Positions 1 to 6,108 of a stretch of 6,364 nt of DNA are shown in pieces (positions within the stretch are counted from its first letter, which is position 1; each line of letters begins with the position of its first letter). The notes under the pieces are model-generated. The model worked only from the letters and a program-made list of their open reading frames with translations. It was not told where the DNA came from and made no database searches. This stretch comes from Syntrophomonadaceae bacterium (GTDB lineage Bacteria > Bacillota_D > Dethiobacteria > DTU022 > UBA8154), in contig SKMY01000170.1 of NCBI GenBank assembly GCA_007120815.1, positions 1-6,364 on the forward strand. The letters are read 5' to 3'. The translations under genes and the position numbers were made by a program.

Positions 1-854
1 AGGGGGGGGAGGTTGGGGTCGGGAAAGCACCGGTAATCAGCGGACACAAACTTGCTTCGCATGGCCCGGGTGTACTCGTTTACCTCGTCCCAGTGCCGGG
101 TCTCCGGAAGCACCTCCCCGCCTTCTTGAAGCACATCCATCTGCCGCCGGGCTTCATATTCAATGCCCCTGTAAACGGAACGGAAGGAGTTCATGTTTTT
201 TAGCTCCGTTTTTTTGCCGAAAATATGGCTTCCCCGGGGCCTTACGCTGACATTGGCGTCACAGCGCATGGACCCTTCTTCCATTTTACAGTCGGAAATG
301 CCCAGGTAGCGCAGTATGCTGCGCAGTTTCTGTAGAAAGAGACGGGCCTCCTCCGCTGAGCGAATGTCCGGTTCCGTCACAATCTCGATAAGCGGGACGC
401 CGGCCCGGTTGAAATCGACCCGGCTGTAGGGAGAGGATAAAATATCGCCCAGGTGGATTAATTTACCCGTATCTTCCTCCAGGTGAATTTGATGGATACC
501 GATTTTTTTAGTTTCCCCGTTGTATACGATTTCCACGAATCCCCTGGTGCCGATGGGTTGGAAAAACTGGGATATCTGGTACCCTTTAGGCAGGTCGGCG
601 TAAAAGTAATTTTTTCGATCAAAAGAAATATGCCCGGCAATGGTGCAGTTCAGTGCCAGGGACGCCTTTATGGCAAACTCTACGGCCTTCGCGTTCAAAA
701 GGGGAAGGGTTTCCCCGGGAAGCCCCAGACAAACGGGGCACACCTGGGTGTTGGGATCAGCACCAAAAGCGGCGCTGCAACCGCAAAAAAGCTTGGTTTC
801 CGTTAGCAGCTCCACGTGCACTTCCAGGCCCACTACCGTTTCCATTTCGCTCAA
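1..854 (-). CDS. gatB: GatB-like subunit of a tRNA-dependent amidotransferase (5' part, gene runs off the window)
   Basis: In GatCAB, GatB binds Asp-tRNA(Asn) or Glu-tRNA(Gln), phosphorylates the side-chain carboxylate with ATP and replaces the phosphate with ammonia delivered from GatA. The window holds the first 284 codons of a family of about 475; the C-terminal tRNA-binding tail domain lies outside. Visible motifs are GLEVH at residues 9-13 with the metal-site His, paired cysteines C24/C26 and C39/C42 (structural zinc type), FDRKNYFY at 78-85, HLEEDTGK at 124-131, [15 protein letters not shown] at 149-163 and [13 protein letters not shown] at 191-203. I chose the TTG at 854: it overlaps the gatA stop as TTGA, follows a G-rich ribosome site, and the same frame has a TAA two codons upstream. 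An ATG three codons later is the alternative. Residues 267-281 deviate from the family, reading [15 protein letters not shown] where relatives have roughly SKEEAHDYRYFPEPD. The activation machinery therefore looks intact, although its partner GatA looks inactive. Confidence 0.95.
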
Positions 855-2317
855 TTTTTACACCCCCCCTGGCCTTTGTCCGCTGGCACTTGGAACTTCA
901 GTGAACATTCATTTTCTATCCGCAGCGATGTTTTTAACAGGGAAAGCTCGTCTCCAAAACGGCCCATGAGCTGAAGCCCTGACGGCATCCCCGATGCTGA
1001 ATGCACGGGAAAAGTCAAGGCGGGCAGACCGGCCAGGTTTGCTGCCGCCGTAAAGTAATTCACGGGATCAGGAAGCTGCCACCGGGGTTGGGGAGCATCC
1101 AGCAGGGGTGGCGCACAGGGGGTTGTGGGGGTCAGCAGAAAGTGGTAGTGTGCCAGGCAGTCTTCCAGTTCCCGGTTTATTCGTGTACGCATTTTCTGGC
1201 TTTTCACATAGTAGTTTTCAACATACTGATCCGAGGAAAACAGGGCGCCGGAAGTTAAAAACTGCTTAAGTTTTGAACTGAAGCCGTCGGTGCGGGTGGA
1301 GATGTACATGTCCTGCAGCGACTGCCCATCTCCCCGGAAACCAAAGCGCACGCCGTCAAAATTGGCCAGATTGGAAAAAGCTTCAACGGCGCTAATAGTG
1401 GAAGCGGCCAGGTAGGCGTATTGAAAAACCTCCAGGGATACAAACTCAATCACCATCCCAGCCTTTTTTAATGCATCCAGCTGCGCCCTAAAGGCCTCCC
1501 GGACGTCAGCATCCATCCCGGGCGCTTCATGCCAGTTTTCCGGAACGGCAGCACGGAAGGTTAGGTTTTCTTCATGGTTCAACCGGTCTTCGAAACGGGG
1601 CGCAGGCTCTTTCAGGGATGTTACATCGGCGGGATCTTCCCCCGCAGCGGTTTCCAGGGCCAGGGCCAGATCCCTGGAGTTTCGAGCCATCACACCCGGT
1701 TGTGCCAGCGAAGGGGCGTAATCGATAACCCCTTTTCTGGAAATCCGCCCGTAAGAGGGTTTCAGGGCCAGCACGCCGCAAAAGGCAGCGGACTGCCTGG
1801 CTTCGCCGCAGGTATCCGAAGCCAGGGCCAGGGATGCCAGGGTAGCCACAGCAGCGGCCGCTCCGCTGCCCGCTGTCCTGTCCGGTTCCCAGGGGTTTTT
1901 TACCGTGCCATAATGAGAACTGTTCCCCCAAGACCCCACACCAAACTCTTCCATGTTTGCTTTTCCGACAACGATTGCACCCTGGTTTTTCAAAAGCTCA
2001 ACCACCCGGGCATGCCAGGGGGGCTCGTAGGCAGCAAGCATCCTGGACCCGCAGGTGGTGGCCAGGTTGGCTGTACAAATATTGTCTGCCAGGACAGTCG
2101 TTGCCCCGGCCAGGGGCAAGGTTTTTCCTTCCCGGAGGGCTTCTTTAATCACGGTTACTTCCTGGAAAACTTGCTGCGGTTCAAAAGATATAAAAAGCTG
2201 CAGGTTTTGACTTTTGGAGCAAAGAAAAGCAAGGTCCCCGGGCATGTTGTCCAGCAGGTCCGGCTTTTCGTTTACCCGTTCGGCCAATTCACGAAGGGGC
2301 AGGTTCATTAAGTCCAC
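851..2317 (-). CDS. gatA: GatA-like amidase-family subunit lacking the catalytic triad (predicted pseudoenzyme)
   Basis: Normal GatA hydrolyses glutamine with a Lys-cisSer-Ser triad and channels ammonia to GatB. This 488-residue protein has family length and clear homology from the N terminus ([11 protein letters not shown]) through [49 protein letters not shown] and [11 protein letters not shown] to GLQLMGR. The active site is gone. The Lys of the IKDN motif is Ala77 (VLADN). The loop normally VPGGSSGGSAAAVA is three residues shorter and reads [11 protein letters not shown], near residues 148-158. The nucleophilic Ser of SDTGGSIRQP is Glu172 ([10 protein letters not shown]). Sites linked to glutamine binding also differ: a conserved KRR is KQF near 351-353, and the Asp before NLAG is Asn420. 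Codons run in frame through all these places, so they are not frameshift artefacts. I chose the GTG start at 2317 because AAAGGAG lies seven bases upstream; an ATG at 2368 would add 17 residues unlike the family. It overlaps gatB by four bases. A scaffold role for GatB is likely. Confidence 0.93.
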
Positions 2318-2324
2318 GACAAAT

Positions 2325-2331
2325 CTCCTTT
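2325..2331 (-). promoter_or_regulatory. Ribosome binding site that sets the gatA GTG start
   Basis: AAAGGAG on the minus strand ends seven bases before the GTG at 2317, an ideal spacing. It lies inside the longer reading frame that would begin at ATG 2368, which has a weaker GGGG site five bases upstream. The family N terminus begins near residue 1 of the GTG version, which favours it. Confidence 0.75.
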
Positions 2332-2390
2332 CTTTAATAAATGGCGGCGTGTCCGTTGGTTCTTTCATTCACGCCCCTGTTTTATCTGTG

Positions 2391-2681
2391 TTATTCCTCA
2401 ACGATTCGGGGAACATGGAAACAGTATTCATCGGCATCGGCCGCATTTTGCAGCGTTTTTTCCAGTGGAAGCGAAGGCGTTTTTTCATCCTTTCGCATCC
2501 TGCCCGCCTGATTGTGTCCATAAAAAGTGGCAGGTATATCCTTGAGCACGCTTTCAGAAACGGTGTCCAGCTGTTCCATAAGGGCGAGGCTGGTTTTTAG
2601 TACCTGTTCCTTTTCTTCCGCATCCAGGTTTACTCGTGCGTCCAGGGCGGCTTTTTCGATTTGTTCAGGGCCGGTTGTCAT
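2391..2681 (-). CDS. gatC: GatC-like small subunit of a tRNA-dependent amidotransferase
   Basis: GatC is the small belt-like subunit that wraps around the GatA-GatB interface and stabilises GatA; it has no active site. This 96-residue protein has family length. The N-terminal helical part (EQIEKAALDARVNLDAEEKE) resembles the usual segment VARLARLELSEEE, the middle has DEKTPSLPLEKTLQNAAD as in family DEVRPSLPREEALANAP, and the C terminus HVPRIVEE matches the conserved FxVPkvVE ending. I placed the start at the ATG at 2681 because AAAGG at 2691-2695 sits nine bases ahead of it; the ATG at 2690 directly abuts that site with no spacing. It is the first gene of the leftward gatCAB operon, 73 bases before the gatA GTG. 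Presence of all three subunits in normal order argues that the complex is still assembled even though its GatA lacks catalytic residues. Confidence 0.9.
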   Translation of the reverse strand: MTTGPEQIEKAALDARVNLDAEEKEQVLKTSLALMEQLDTVSESVLKDIPATFYGHNQAGRMRKDEKTPSLPLEKTLQNAADADEYCFHVPRIVEE

Positions 2682-2824
2682 GTTTTTCATCCTTTCATCA
2701 TCATGCCGTGTTCTTTGCTATCTTAATTTTCCACAAAAGAAACTAAAGTCCTTCCATAGCGGCGGATTACCTCTAGAAAACCGCGTTTGTGCTGGTATAA
2801 ACGTATTTTCTACTTCGGGCAGCG

Positions 2825-2854
2825 GCTATAATCCCTCTTTAAGTCTGCAGTCAA
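2825..2854 (-). promoter_or_regulatory. Candidate sigma-A promoter for gatCAB
   Basis: On the minus strand TTGACT (2849-2854) is followed after 18 bases by TATAGC (2825-2830). The -35 matches five of six and the -10 four of six consensus bases. Transcription would start near 2818, giving a leader of about 135 bases before gatC. No terminator-like hairpin is obvious in this leader. Confidence 0.45.
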
Positions 2855-3035
2855 CAAAAAACCGACTGGGGAGCATTTGGTTCACTCCAGGCATCTCAGG
2901 CTTCTCGGCCTTTCATTTACTCCAGCGGGGCGGTGGCCCTGGAAAGAAACTTTTTCGGATTCTAGCATATATATAGAAACAGCTTTACATAGATCACATA
3001 AAAGAAAGGAGTAAAAGTGTAAGGCGGGCCATTAT

Positions 3036-3064
3036 TTGACAAATATATGTCGCTATTTTATACT
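3036..3064 (+). promoter_or_regulatory. Sigma-A promoter for asnB
   Basis: TTGACA (3036-3041), a 17-base spacer, then TATACT (3059-3064): a near-perfect housekeeping promoter in AT-rich DNA. Transcription would begin near 3071, about 42 bases before the asnB ATG. An imperfect inverted repeat GACA-n6-TGTC (3038-3051) overlaps the -35 element and could be an operator half-site pair, though it is short. Confidence 0.8.
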
Positions 3065-3112
3065 ATTAACGGAGGAGTACAAAAATCTATACTTAGGGAG
3101 CGATTTTAAAAA

Positions 3113-4594
3113 ATGAGTGGTATCGCCGTTTCGTACGGCAGTTCCGAAGAAGCAGACTTAAAGAGGATGCTATCCAAGCTGGAACACCGGGGCGAATTAT
3201 CCGGAATAGAATCTCTGGATAACATCAGCATGGGCTACCGGAGCAATCACGTTAATCAGCTTATCGGAGATGAAACGCCGGGAGAATCAGACACATTCTC
3301 CATCAACGGCAAGGCCTGTGCAGTCTGCGACGGCTACCTGTTCAATGACGAGCTGTTTGACCACGATAACAGCAGTCTGGTTGCTGGCATGTTTCAGGAG
3401 AAAGGAACCCGTTTCGTAGAGGACCTGGAAGGAACCTTTGCCCTGGCGGTTACAGACGGCAGTTCTTTTTTAGTCGCCCGGGACCCCTTCGGCATCAAGC
3501 CATTATACTACGGTAATGAAAAGGGCACCACGTATTTTGCGTCGGAAATAAAGGAACTGGTAGAAGTCACTGAGGACATCAATGTATTTCCCCCCGGCCA
3601 TTATTACACCCCCCGTCACGGTTTCCAGCCCTACGGGCAGGTAGCGGGGGAAAAAAGGGTGATAACAAAGGACCCGGAAAAAGCCGCCCGCCAGTTAAAG
3701 CAGCTGATGGTTCAAGCCGTGGAAAGACGCTTTCTAGAAAATGAACGGCCCGGAATCCTGCTGAGCGGAGGCCTGGACAGCAGCGTTGTCGCCGCGGCTG
3801 CCAGGAACATTACGGAAAACCTGGAAACCTTTTCCGTGGGGCTTTGGGGCAGTCCCGACCTGGAAGCCGCCCGGTTGGTGGCTCGCCACCTGGGTTCTAA
3901 GCACCGCGAGCATGTGTACACGGAAGAAGAGATCATGCAGGTCTTAGCCCAGGTCATCTACCACCTGGAGTCTTTTGATGCCCCCCTGGTACAAAGCGCC
4001 ATTGCCAATTATTTCGCCTCCAAGCTGGCAGCGGAAGCTGGCTGTCATTCGATTTTATGTGGGGAAGGGGCCGATGAACTCTTTGGCGGCTACCATTATG
4101 TAAAAGACCTGGGATCCGAAGAAGCCGTGGAACAGGAACTTATGAATATTATCTCCATCGGCCACGCCATGGGCTTTCAGCGGGTTGACCGTATGAACAG
4201 CGCCCATTCCCTGGAATCTCACGTGCCCTTTATGGATCAGGATGTGGTGGAATTCGCTGCAGCAGTGCCCCTGGATTGGAAAATATTCGGTAAAGAGCAA
4301 ACAGAAAAATGGATTCTGCGCACGGCCTTTACCCATGACCTGCCGGAAAAAATAGTCTGGCGTCGCAAGGCCCAGTTCAGCCACGGAACCGGGTGCAACA
4401 AAATGATGGAGCAGGTCGCCGAAGCGCGGATATCCGATGAGGAATTTTACAAGGCCCAAAACGAAAACGAAGGCATTATGCTTCGAACCAAAGAAGAATG
4501 CCTGTACTACCACATTTTTAAAACCTTTTACCCCCAGGATTCCGCGGCACAATCCGTGGTTCAGTGGTCAAGCCTGGAGGGAGATAACACATGA
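3113..4594 (+). CDS. asnB: AsnB-like asparagine synthetase lacking glutaminase residues (predicted ammonia-dependent or repurposed)
   Basis: AsnB makes asparagine from aspartate, ATP and glutamine with an N-terminal class II glutaminase and a C-terminal synthetase. In this 493-residue protein the synthetase half closely resembles E. coli-type AsnB: PP-loop SGGLDSS at 218-224, SVGLWGSPDL at 241-250, GEGADELFGGY at 317-327, LESHVPFMD at 367-375 and WRRKAQFSHG at 416-425. The N-terminal half keeps its fold (ARDPFGIKPLYY at 122-133) but not its active site. It starts MSGIAV, so the essential Cys2 is Ser. HRGPD is HRGEL, the RLSI segment carrying the glutamine-binding Arg is missing, NGEIYN is DGYLFN, the later Asp aligns with Asn86, and a loop there is about 11 residues shorter. 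An in-frame TAA at 3107-3109 excludes an earlier start. AGGGAG (3095-3100) is 12 bases upstream, a long spacing. Likely activity is ammonia-dependent asparagine synthesis; another amide- or peptide-forming acyl transfer is possible, as in Cys-less relatives such as beta-lactam synthetases. Confidence 0.93.
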   Translation: MSGIAVSYGSSEEADLKRMLSKLEHRGELSGIESLDNISMGYRSNHVNQLIGDETPGESDTFSINGKACAVCDGYLFNDELFDHDNSSLVAGMFQEKGTRFVEDLEGTFALAVTDGSSFLVARDPFGIKPLYYGNEKGTTYFASEIKELVEVTEDINVFPPGHYYTPRHGFQPYGQVAGEKRVITKDPEKAARQLKQLMVQAVERRFLENERPGILLSGGLDSSVVAAAARNITENLETFSVGLWGSPDLEAARLVARHLGSKHREHVYTEEEIMQVLAQVIYHLESFDAPLVQSAIANYFASKLAAEAGCHSILCGEGADELFGGYHYVKDLGSEEAVEQELMNIISIGHAMGFQRVDRMNSAHSLESHVPFMDQDVVEFAAAVPLDWKIFGKEQTEKWILRTAFTHDLPEKIVWRRKAQFSHGTGCNKMMEQVAEARISDEEFYKAQNENEGIMLRTKEECLYYHIFKTFYPQDSAAQSVVQWSSLEGDNT

Positions 4595-4620: not shown

Positions 4621-4629
4621 GGAACGCAG

Positions 4630-4663
4630 CAAACCCCGGCCGTTTTCCGGGGTTTGTTTTTTT
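4630..4663 (+). terminator. Intrinsic terminator after asnB
   Basis: A perfect 10-bp stem, CAAACCCCGG (4630-4639) with CCGGGGTTTG (4647-4656), has a 7-base loop and is followed directly by seven T residues (4657-4663). It ends the asnB transcript and separates it from the lipid kinase gene. Confidence 0.93.
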
Positions 4664-4741: not shown

Positions 4742-5686
4742 ATGAAAAACAGCAAACGGTTCCTCATTGTAAATCCAGCCGCTTCCAGCGGAAAGGCGGG
4801 GAAAAGATGGCCCCGGGTTAAACAACAGCTCCTGGCCCAAGGGCTTTCTTTTGACTATCAATTGACCGGCGGCCCGGGGGATGCCACCGATTTTGCCCTG
4901 CAGGCCCTTCAGCAGGGCTACACCGCGATTGTGGCGGTTGGGGGAGACGGCACACTTAACGAGGTGGCTAACGGCTTTTTCCAGGCCGATGAAATAACCC
5001 GCAGCCAGGCCGTCCTGGGGCTCATACCGGAAGGTACAGGAGGCGACTTCGCCCGCCTGATGAATATTCCCCGGGACATTAAGGCCTGTGCGTCTCTGAT
5101 CGCCCGTGAAGAAACGCACCTTATCGACGTGGCCCATGCCAGGTATCATCTGTCAGGTGGGAACAGCGCAGCAGCCATCACCTCTACCCGTTATTTTTGC
5201 AATACCGCCGACGTGGGCCTGGGCGGCGCCACCATTGCCTTAATGCGGCGAATGAGGAAATACCTGGGCGGTTTTTTGTCTTACTACGCGGCCATGGTTT
5301 TTTCCATGCTCTTTTATCAAAACCGGGAAATTACGGCGGTGATTGACGGTTGTGAAGCCTGGACGGGGAAAGTGGTTACCCTGGTGGTGGGCAATGGACA
5401 ATATTTTGGCGGGGGGATGAAGATTACCCCCACGGCGCTGCCCAATGACGGCTTACTGGATGTTCTCCTGGTTACAGACATGAGCAAGACCCGCCTTTTG
5501 TTCAACTCTCCCCGGGTCTACAAAGGAACTCACCTGGACATCAAAGGCGTTGAATGGTTCCAGGGGCGTCACATTTTCATTCAATCGGCCCAAAACAATG
5601 TACCTTTTGAAATGGACGGTGAATATCTCGGCAGGGCGCCTGTAGAGATTCGCATTCTCCCCGGGGCCCTGCGGTTTATTGTCTAG
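4742..5686 (+). CDS. Diacylglycerol kinase-family lipid kinase (YegS/DgkB/BmrU type)
   Basis: Members phosphorylate diacylglycerol or a related lipid with ATP at the cytoplasmic membrane face; DgkB recycles diacylglycerol in Gram-positive lipoteichoic acid synthesis, but the exact lipid cannot be read from sequence. The 314-residue protein has family length (about 300). Visible are the N-terminal FLIVNPAASSGKAGK at 7-21, the nucleotide-binding GGDGTLNEVANG at 67-78, PEGTGGDFARLMNIP at 96-110 (many relatives have GTANDFAR), NTADVGLGG at 154-162, GNGQYFGGGMKITPTALPNDGLLD at 217-240 in two adjoining motifs, and EMDGE at 290-294. No signal peptide or clear membrane span is seen. The ATG at 4742 gives the exact family N terminus, although its ribosome site is weak (GGAG at 4725-4728, 13 bases upstream). 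No strong promoter is visible between it and the terminator at 4630-4663, so its transcription may rely on a weak site or on readthrough. Confidence 0.92.
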   Translation: MKNSKRFLIVNPAASSGKAGKRWPRVKQQLLAQGLSFDYQLTGGPGDATDFALQALQQGYTAIVAVGGDGTLNEVANGFFQADEITRSQAVLGLIPEGTGGDFARLMNIPRDIKACASLIAREETHLIDVAHARYHLSGGNSAAAITSTRYFCNTADVGLGGATIALMRRMRKYLGGFLSYYAAMVFSMLFYQNREITAVIDGCEAWTGKVVTLVVGNGQYFGGGMKITPTALPNDGLLDVLLVTDMSKTRLLFNSPRVYKGTHLDIKGVEWFQGRHIFIQSAQNNVPFEMDGEYLGRAPVEIRILPGALRFIV

Positions 5687-5904: not shown

Positions 5905-6108
5905 TTAGTCCTGATATTTAAATGAAACGTTTAGCTTAACCCGGAAGAACAGCCTGCCTTCCTCTAATTTAACATCCATCTCTTTTACTTCTGCCACCCG
6001 GAGGTCTCTTAAAGACTTCGATGCAGTGTCCACAGCAACACGAGCAGCATCTTCCCAGGATTTTTCACTGGTGCCGATAATTTCAATCACCTTGTATACG
6101 CTTTCCAT
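5905..6108 (-). CDS. Dodecin family protein
   Basis: Dodecins are about 70-residue proteins that form hollow dodecamers; classic ones store or buffer flavins, others bind calcium or lack a known ligand. This 67-residue protein matches end to end: VYKVIEIIGTSEKSWEDAAR at residues 4-23, then ASKSLRDLR helix at 29-37, EVKEMDV strand and a final RVKLNVSFKY strand at 56-65. The Trp that stacks on flavin in the haloarchaeal protein (LRNLRW) is Val38 here, and the Gln of the WQV strand is Arg56, so standard flavin sandwiching is unlikely. Its start is clear: AAAGGAGGTG at 6113-6122 precedes the ATG by a few bases. It is a single-gene unit with its own promoter and a shared terminator at 5819-5850, and sits divergently from the next gene. 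Confidence 0.9.
   Translation of the reverse strand: MESVYKVIEIIGTSEKSWEDAARVAVDTASKSLRDLRVAEVKEMDVKLEEGRLFFRVKLNVSFKYQD

Follow-up and report, generated by a model that had tools for sequence, protein, structure and literature searches.

A putative glutamine-independent GatCAB variant with a loop-deleted GatA in the Dethiobacteria

Introduction

In the textbook view, GatCAB depends on glutamine and works by the coupling of its glutaminase, tunnel and kinase. The locus analysed here lies on contig SKMY01000170.1 of a Syntrophomonadaceae bacterium (assembly GCA_007120815.1), a stretch of 6,364 nucleotides referred to in its whole length as the window. It contains a gat operon whose GatA has lost the glutaminase site, divergent to a gene for an AsnB-like synthetase that has lost its own. 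Comparative analysis suggests that this operon is rather likely to encode a working, glutamine-independent, tRNA-dependent amidotransferase fed with free ammonia; the activity, the ammonia donor and its route via GatA are what we infer.

The operon resembles canonical GatCAB in its gatC-gatA-gatB order, established through open reading frame (ORF) and family calls, in the catalytic residues of GatB, in the fold of GatA and, as far as the copies of relatives suggest, in the C-terminal part of GatB. It differs in GatA, from which the catalytic Lys, cis-Ser loop and nucleophile Ser are missing and in most cases also the Arg and Asp that bind Gln, and in GatB, which has Cys for a Tyr and Asn or Glu for an Asp. 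Operon, GatB chemistry and fold place it with GatCAB and the glutaminase site does not, and it is hence regarded here as a putative GatCAB variant. Loop-deleted GatA, its GatB partner and their complex are designated GatA*, GatB* and GatCAB*, and genomes and loci are labelled with G and L, respectively.

A laboratory variant of yeast GatFAB with a truncated GatF provides a functional likeness. As described in PMC4027206, this variant has a weakened glutaminase, still transamidates, and with NH4Cl yields more transamidation than the full-length enzyme; GatCAB-type enzymes are thus known to be able to use ammonia. The weakening is engineered and the GatA triad intact (PMC4027206), whereas the loss in GatCAB* is natural, total and old. 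The AtzE-type "vestigial" amidase complex (6c62, 6c6g), compared through its PDB titles, likewise reuses a GatA-fold protein, but is by PDB name an amidase (biuret hydrolase). On the AsnB side, the window protein shares with E. coli AsnB (1ct9) its fold and synthetase motifs, and differs in having Ser for Cys2 and a degraded Gln site. Beta-lactam and carbapenam synthetases (1jgt, 1q15), which are not known to have a working glutaminase, are AsnB-fold relatives by sequence and fold, but match the window protein more weakly than AsnB does (E-values of 2.5e-20 and 1e-18 versus 4.6e-66). A search of open-access literature yielded no account of a GatCAB that is glutaminase-dead by nature, which is weak evidence of absence given that most subscription papers lie outside that search.

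Results

Loss of the GatA glutaminase site

Comparison of the window GatA with solved GatA structures revealed Ala in place of the catalytic Lys, a cis-Ser loop three residues shorter than the canonical one (AG---SGAAAA versus PGGSSGGSAA) and Glu in place of the nucleophile Ser (DTCGE versus DTGGS). Residue roles were transferred by spacing from yeast GatA, for which the pertinent section of PMC4027206 lists K52, cis-S130, S154, R334 and D418. The fold is predicted to be kept: the structure model has a mean predicted local distance difference test (pLDDT) score of 91.0 and template modelling (TM) scores of 0.87-0.90 to 4wj3, 3h0l and 2df4 (0.89 to S. aureus GatA, 2df4_A). The cis-Ser loop motif is missing in 71 of the best 120 of 4339 GatA homologue matches, and the state of the window GatA is therefore not a matter of chance or of a single mutation.

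Among 116 columns that are invariant in canonical GatA, 37 are kept in at least 90% of GatA* rows and 39 are lost (below 50%), the latter including K80, the cis-Ser loop, S179, R359 and D426 (numbered after the L139 intact proteins). The Gln-binding residues R359 and D426 are retained in 8 and 10 of 34 GatA* rows, respectively, and the nucleophile position holds Glu in 18 of the 34, with E, G, N, A or S found across the family. The one change that all loop-deleted GatAs share is the missing cis-Ser loop. Three proteins (L209, L210 and L237, from G014, G027 and G028) have the Lys and the nucleophile Ser without the loop, and would be useful for establishing the order of decay.

Conservation of GatB

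The window GatB piece scores above several gatB cut-offs (PRK05477.1-2, 457.2 versus 338; TIGR00133, 398 versus 314.8), and the window GatA falls below the NCBIfam gatA equivalog cut-off (369.9 versus 481.1). The window GatB piece retains its Mg/ATP residues. These residues (E12, H14, E127, E128 and E155) are present in all 33 GatB* sequences, which conserve, in at least 90% of rows, 81 of the 97 columns that are invariant in canonical GatB. The C-terminal part is truncated in the window; the GatB of the one relative aligned (L139) matches the family to the C-terminus, and 30 of the 33 GatB* sequences are full length (at least 477 amino acids), the other three stopping at contig ends. Within the canonical DYRYFP[ED]PD segment, the window GatB has C and N at the Y and D sites. 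The GatB* changes Y274C and D279N or D279E are a possible signature of a glutamine-independent form.

Distribution, descent and constraint

The distribution of GatA* was analysed in 97 genomes, presumed to represent the class Dethiobacteria. The set was entered via L004, a locus with a dead GatA in Syntrophomonadaceae bacterium CSSed165cm_152, whose series presumably derives from soda-lake sediment; in a contig scan with two general GatA patterns, L004 is the only one that the motif scan marks as dead among the 80 loci listed. Candidatus Contubernalis alkaliaceticus is placed in the same class in PMC10608574. High-scoring dead GatAs (>550 bits) were detected in 25 genomes, with Lys, cis-Ser loop and Ser lost in 25/25. 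Another 27 genomes encode a second, lower-scoring GatA without the loop, in which the Lys is often and the Ser sometimes kept; these comprise 8 plus 19 of 20 further proteins fetched, the twentieth being intact. A loop-deleted GatA was hence verified in at least 52 of the 97 genomes, a lower bound because only some of the other GatA-like matches in the class were fetched. Outside the class, the best match in 398 genomes of the phylum (including at least 15 class members) reached 493 bits, versus >550 for the dead type, although the lower-scoring subclade with K-A or K-S could still occur there.

A tree of GatA sequences built with the catalytic columns removed (96 rows) placed the 53 loop-deleted proteins, the window GatA included, on one side of a branch with a Shimodaira-Hasegawa-like approximate likelihood ratio test (SH-aLRT) value of 97. 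In a GatB tree of 73 rows, the 33 GatBs adjoining loop-deleted GatAs grouped together with support 92 and fell into the same two subclades; this tree and the GatB label counts leave out L199, the G053 gatB, whose contig carries no gatA. Judged from the two trees, loop-deleted GatA and its own GatB are one old clade. Ratios of nonsynonymous to synonymous substitution rates (dN/dS) were 0.055, 0.062 and 0.042 for three GatB* pairs and 0.179, 0.164, 0.115 and 0.068 for four GatA* pairs, the last one rough (dS 2.85), as compared with 0.066-0.099 for three pairs of intact GatA. By this measure, both GatA* and GatB* are under purifying selection. The operon itself is also maintained: within 6 kb, all 25 dead-GatA loci have a called GatA, 24 have a GatB and 22 a GatC, ORF calling being known to miss some gatC genes.

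Genomes with an apparently single GatCAB

A GatA with an intact GGSSGGS loop is also carried by 15 of the 25 genomes with a dead GatA (the copy at L137 is partial), and G063 has a second GatA-like match, which was not fetched. Nine genomes (G001, G045, G046, G053, G055, G056, G057, G058 and G097) present a single GatA-like match (1e-20) and a single GatB match. Under curated cut-offs, glutaminyl-tRNA synthetase (GlnRS) was found in 3 of the 25 genomes (G001, G076, G087) and asparaginyl-tRNA synthetase (AsnRS) in 4 (G076, G087, G093, G094), and neither scored above those cut-offs in eight sole-copy genomes (G045, G046, G053, G055-G058 and G097). In these eight, the GatCAB with the dead GatA is apparently the only Gln-/Asn-tRNA amidotransferase. 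If the rate at which gatB is missed in the class (4/97) serves as a rough null, eight misses in 25 correspond to p ~5e-6.

The genomic home of the intact operon in relatives is purF-purM-purH-purD-(pcrA)-ligA-(comFB)-gatC-gatA-gatB, with names checked by family search at L117 and L116. This ancestral site was assembled unbroken and devoid of gat genes in six of the eight sole-copy genomes, reading ligA-comFB-fumA in G053, pcrA-ligA-fumA-fumB in G045, ligA-comFB-(short ORF)-nth in G055, ligA-(short ORF)-nth in G056, and ligA-comFB followed by other genes in G057 and G058. Searches with tblastn (0.01), using the intact GatA, GatB and GatC of two relatives, returned no remnant at these six sites and did detect the gat genes in both controls (L118 and L124). 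If the GatA* tree guides descent, this pattern would entail at least three separate losses of the intact copy (G055-G058; G053, the sister of G052, which keeps gatA; G045). At L117, G052 has an intact-type gatC (found by tblastn) and gatA, together with a gatB that stops at ~300 codons on a continuing contig, while its dead-GatA operon is whole; this genome may represent a possible stage toward loss of the intact gatCAB. The gatA* and gatB* genes of G053 lie on two contig ends and were treated as a single operon, since the genes that follow gatB* correspond to those found in G052.

The AsnB-like neighbour

The protein encoded divergently to the gat operon begins with MSGI instead of MCGI, and thus has Ser2 and no Cys2 nucleophile, and its NGEIYN stretch is degenerate and shortened. 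It keeps the PP-loop motif SGGLDSS, GEGADE and the conserved Lys K419 in a WRRK stretch. Its structure model has a mean pLDDT of 87.5 and a TM score of 0.85 to E. coli AsnB, and it scores above the cut-off of TIGR01536 (270.2 versus 267.1) and under that of PRK09431 (423.7 versus 499). The absence of Cys2 extends to its relatives. In the 18 nearest proteins, position 2 is Ser in 13, Gly in 3 and unreadable in 2, with no Cys among the 16 readable, and among the best 120 of 7707 AsnB-like matches the residue is Ser in 66, Cys in 21, Ala in 17 and Gly in 6, and another or an unread one in 10. Five further AsnB-like proteins (L166, L169, L171, L174 and L175) start with MPGL, or with MPGL after a short lead, which is another Cys2-less state.

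AsnB-like matches occur in 46 of the 97 class genomes, and close orthologues (65-75% identity) in four, three of which also have a dead GatA. Besides the window, the gene adjoins a dead gatA in only one of the 25 loci (in G061), and perhaps on one more contig, as judged from a shared length of 13314; it lies on another contig in G062 and G064, and G050 has an orthologue without a high-scoring dead GatA. No AsnB-like match at 1e-20 was found in 12 of the 25 genomes with the window-type dead GatA. The AsnB-like gene may be a single-gene unit, given the terminator-like hairpin that follows it. These data suggest that the protein is probably a separate and separately derived ammonia-using synthetase, with asparagine as its likeliest product because AsnB is by far its best structural and sequence match.

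The original prediction for this locus held that both divergent neighbours had lost glutaminase function while keeping their ATP-using halves, and both parts are borne out, by the missing Lys, cis-Ser loop and Ser of GatA and Ser2 of the AsnB-like protein on the one hand, and by the GatB Mg/ATP residues and the SGGLDSS and GEGADE motifs on the other. Its proposal that the parallel loss reflects one linked event or system is not supported, as each of the two states is old and found in a large family of its own, and the two genes do not stay together across relatives. A lack of co-occurrence, which the prediction itself had named as evidence to the contrary, thus applies to the pair of GatA and AsnB-like protein but not to the gat operon, which holds together.

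Gene layout and operon neighbourhoods

The features of the window are collected in Table 1. An Rfam scan of the window, including the region between the divergent genes (2691-3112), returned nothing at gathering score, and a regulatory RNA there is not supported.

Table 1. Predicted features of the window, with the basis for each call
Feature	Position	Strand	Basis
gatB, N-terminal 284 aa/codons, truncated by contig end	3-854	-	family models
gatA-like, glutaminase site lost, predicted fold kept	851-2368	-	family models, alignment, structure model
gatC	2391-2690	-	Pfam GatC 28.4 bits vs cut-off 23; TIGR00135 34.9 vs 47.1 (under)
Intergenic region, 422 bp, between divergent gatC and AsnB-like gene	2691-3112	.	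ORF calls
Promoter-like site TTGACA-17-TATACT, facing AsnB-like gene	3036-3064	+	consensus match only
AsnB-like synthetase, Ser2 for Cys2	3113-4594	+	family models, alignment, structure model
Terminator-like hairpin 3' of AsnB-like gene	4628-4658	+	consensus match only
YegS-type lipid kinase, ordinary by family match	4742-5686	+	family model
Dodecin gene, ordinary by family match	5905-6108	-	family model

Across the 25 dead-GatA loci, recurrent neighbourhoods comprise arginine genes, mobB with a tRNA array, clusters c35-c38, clusters c50-c54 and fumarase, and five loci (L112, L114, L115, L136 and L143) have no neighbour family in common with the rest. A dedicated partner gene was sought within 6 kb of the 25 loci; gat genes aside, the commonest family occurs in only 5 of 25, and no recurring neighbour family supports a dedicated partner or a trans-acting glutaminase next to the operon.

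In G093 (presumed to be Candidatus Contubernalis; L146:562-15810), the operon is embedded in an arginine operon reading argC, argJ, kinase, argD, carB, gatC, gatA*, gatB, argF, argG and argH, in which the kinase is an amino acid kinase in the place of argB. No carA adjoins carB in this genome, and other class I amidotransferases of ~370 amino acids are encoded elsewhere in it. The dead gatCAB is similarly placed in L144 and L149; a T-box leader precedes argC in L146 and L144, and the L149 contig stops within gatB. Genes for tRNA-Gln or tRNA-Asn close to the operon were considered as a clue and discarded, since the 14 loci scanned contain only Asp, Phe, Gly, Cys, Leu and SeC tRNA genes. The array lies 3' of gatB* in L139, L147 and L150, with Asp first, then Phe and Gly, plus Cys and Leu where the contig continues, and a selenocysteine tRNA gene (L145:7201-7296) is found near the dead operon of G051.

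Discussion

In the reading of GatCAB* as an ammonia-fed amidotransferase, GatB* would carry out the customary ATP-dependent activation of Glu-tRNA(Gln) and Asp-tRNA(Asn), and GatA*, a former glutaminase turned scaffold, would hold the complex together and probably guide free ammonia or ammonium to GatB* via the old tunnel. Because GatCAB* is the sole copy found in eight genomes in which neither GlnRS nor AsnRS was found, it must form Gln-tRNA(Gln) and Asn-tRNA(Asn) there without a GatA glutaminase, if these genomes translate normally. Free ammonia would be the simplest nitrogen source, and its use, one of the options put forward in the original prediction, is the reading that fits best, the nitrogen donor being deduced. 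The wider proposal, that this lineage replaced its glutamine-dependent GatCAB at least three times independently, so that Gln-tRNA(Gln) and Asn-tRNA(Asn) come from the glutaminase-dead form alone, part of translation is driven directly by ambient ammonia and GatA* serves as an ammonia or ammonium conduit, we place just on the probable side of even.

At the pH of soda lakes, much of the ammonium exists as NH3. Published descriptions report Dethiobacteria bins from digesters at 0.7-1.0 g/L free ammonia nitrogen (PMC11932165), Dethiobacter alkaliphilus from soda lakes (PMC10376724, PMC5609068) and a haloalkaliphilic Contubernalis (PMC7334858). These habitats of class members fit the ammonia reading.

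Several observations weigh against this reading. In GatB*, D279 (L139 numbering), which is D in 40 of 40 canonical sequences, is N in 21 and E in 8 of 33 sequences, the remainder being three other residues and one gap, and never D; Y274 is C in 29 of the 33. These changes may reflect altered delivery, altered substrate, or both. The genomes are drafts whose completeness is hidden, and the contigs of G046 and G097 stop at ligA, leaving the old gatCAB site unseen. In the 15 genomes that keep an intact-loop GatA, GatCAB* need not serve translation, and many genomes of the other GatA* subclade encode GlnRS and AsnRS as well. The idea, contained in the original prediction, of a specialised paralogous system is supported for part of the class, in these 15 genomes, with G063 having a second match. 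Class I glutamine amidotransferases persist in all eight (1-8 matches, mean 3.6), and glutamine is therefore evidently used there; the 16 genomes with a second GatA match have 2-9 (mean 6.1), and the lower number in sole-copy genomes may denote real loss or less complete drafts. A general loss of glutamine use was considered and rejected, with PF00117 matches in all 31 genomes chosen.

The persistence of class I amidotransferases also bears on the possibility that GatCAB* uses glutamine nitrogen released in trans by a separate glutaminase, whether a partner specific to it or a housekeeping subunit, for example CarA, and the G093 operon does lie beside carB within an arginine operon. This appears unlikely, since no neighbour is common to the loci and GatA* has mostly lost the Gln-binding R and D as well. 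A shift of GatCAB* to a different acceptor, be it a metabolite or another aminoacyl-tRNA, at any rate in genomes that also have an intact GatCAB, would account for this coexistence, for the altered D279 and Y274 and for the location of the G093 operon behind a T-box among arginine genes. Yet the eight genomes with a sole GatB and without GlnRS or AsnRS should rely on it for both tRNA(Gln) and tRNA(Asn), and GatB* is mostly full length, aligning to the C-terminus in L139; we hence deem such a shift quite unlikely.

The remaining alternatives carry less weight still. The frequent Glu at the nucleophile position and the constraint on GatA* could point to a glutaminase with a rebuilt active site, using for instance Glu as the nucleophile, which is improbable because the residue at that position varies across the family, the cis-Ser loop is absent in 53 of 53 and R359 and D426 are seldom kept. 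A single paired system of dead GatA and Ser2 AsnB-like protein, with a common nitrogen donor or substrate, is suggested by their divergent arrangement in the window and G061 and by the dead GatA in three of the four genomes with a close AsnB-like orthologue; it is highly improbable in view of the 12 dead-GatA genomes without an AsnB-like match, the separate contigs of G062 and G064 and the orthologue of G050, which lacks a high-scoring dead GatA. A non-catalytic pseudoenzyme complex or decaying duplicate would be in line with the lost catalytic residues and with GatA* branches that are longer than those of intact GatA, but seems barely credible for ORFs that stay open across deep divergence with dN/dS of 0.04-0.18, and in lineages (at least three, if the GatA* tree is a guide) where the intact copy was the one lost.

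Dead gatA genes are labelled in databases as "amidase family protein" or even as amidotransferase subunit A, and predictions of amidotransferases from gene presence can therefore mislead. If the ammonia-fed reading of GatCAB* is true, this natural variant, which seems to carry essential tRNA amidation, would show that the coupling of glutaminase, tunnel and kinase is dispensable in a cell and would provide a ready system for studying the tunnel alone, and there would be a direct link between translation and the ammonia found in soda lakes and digesters.

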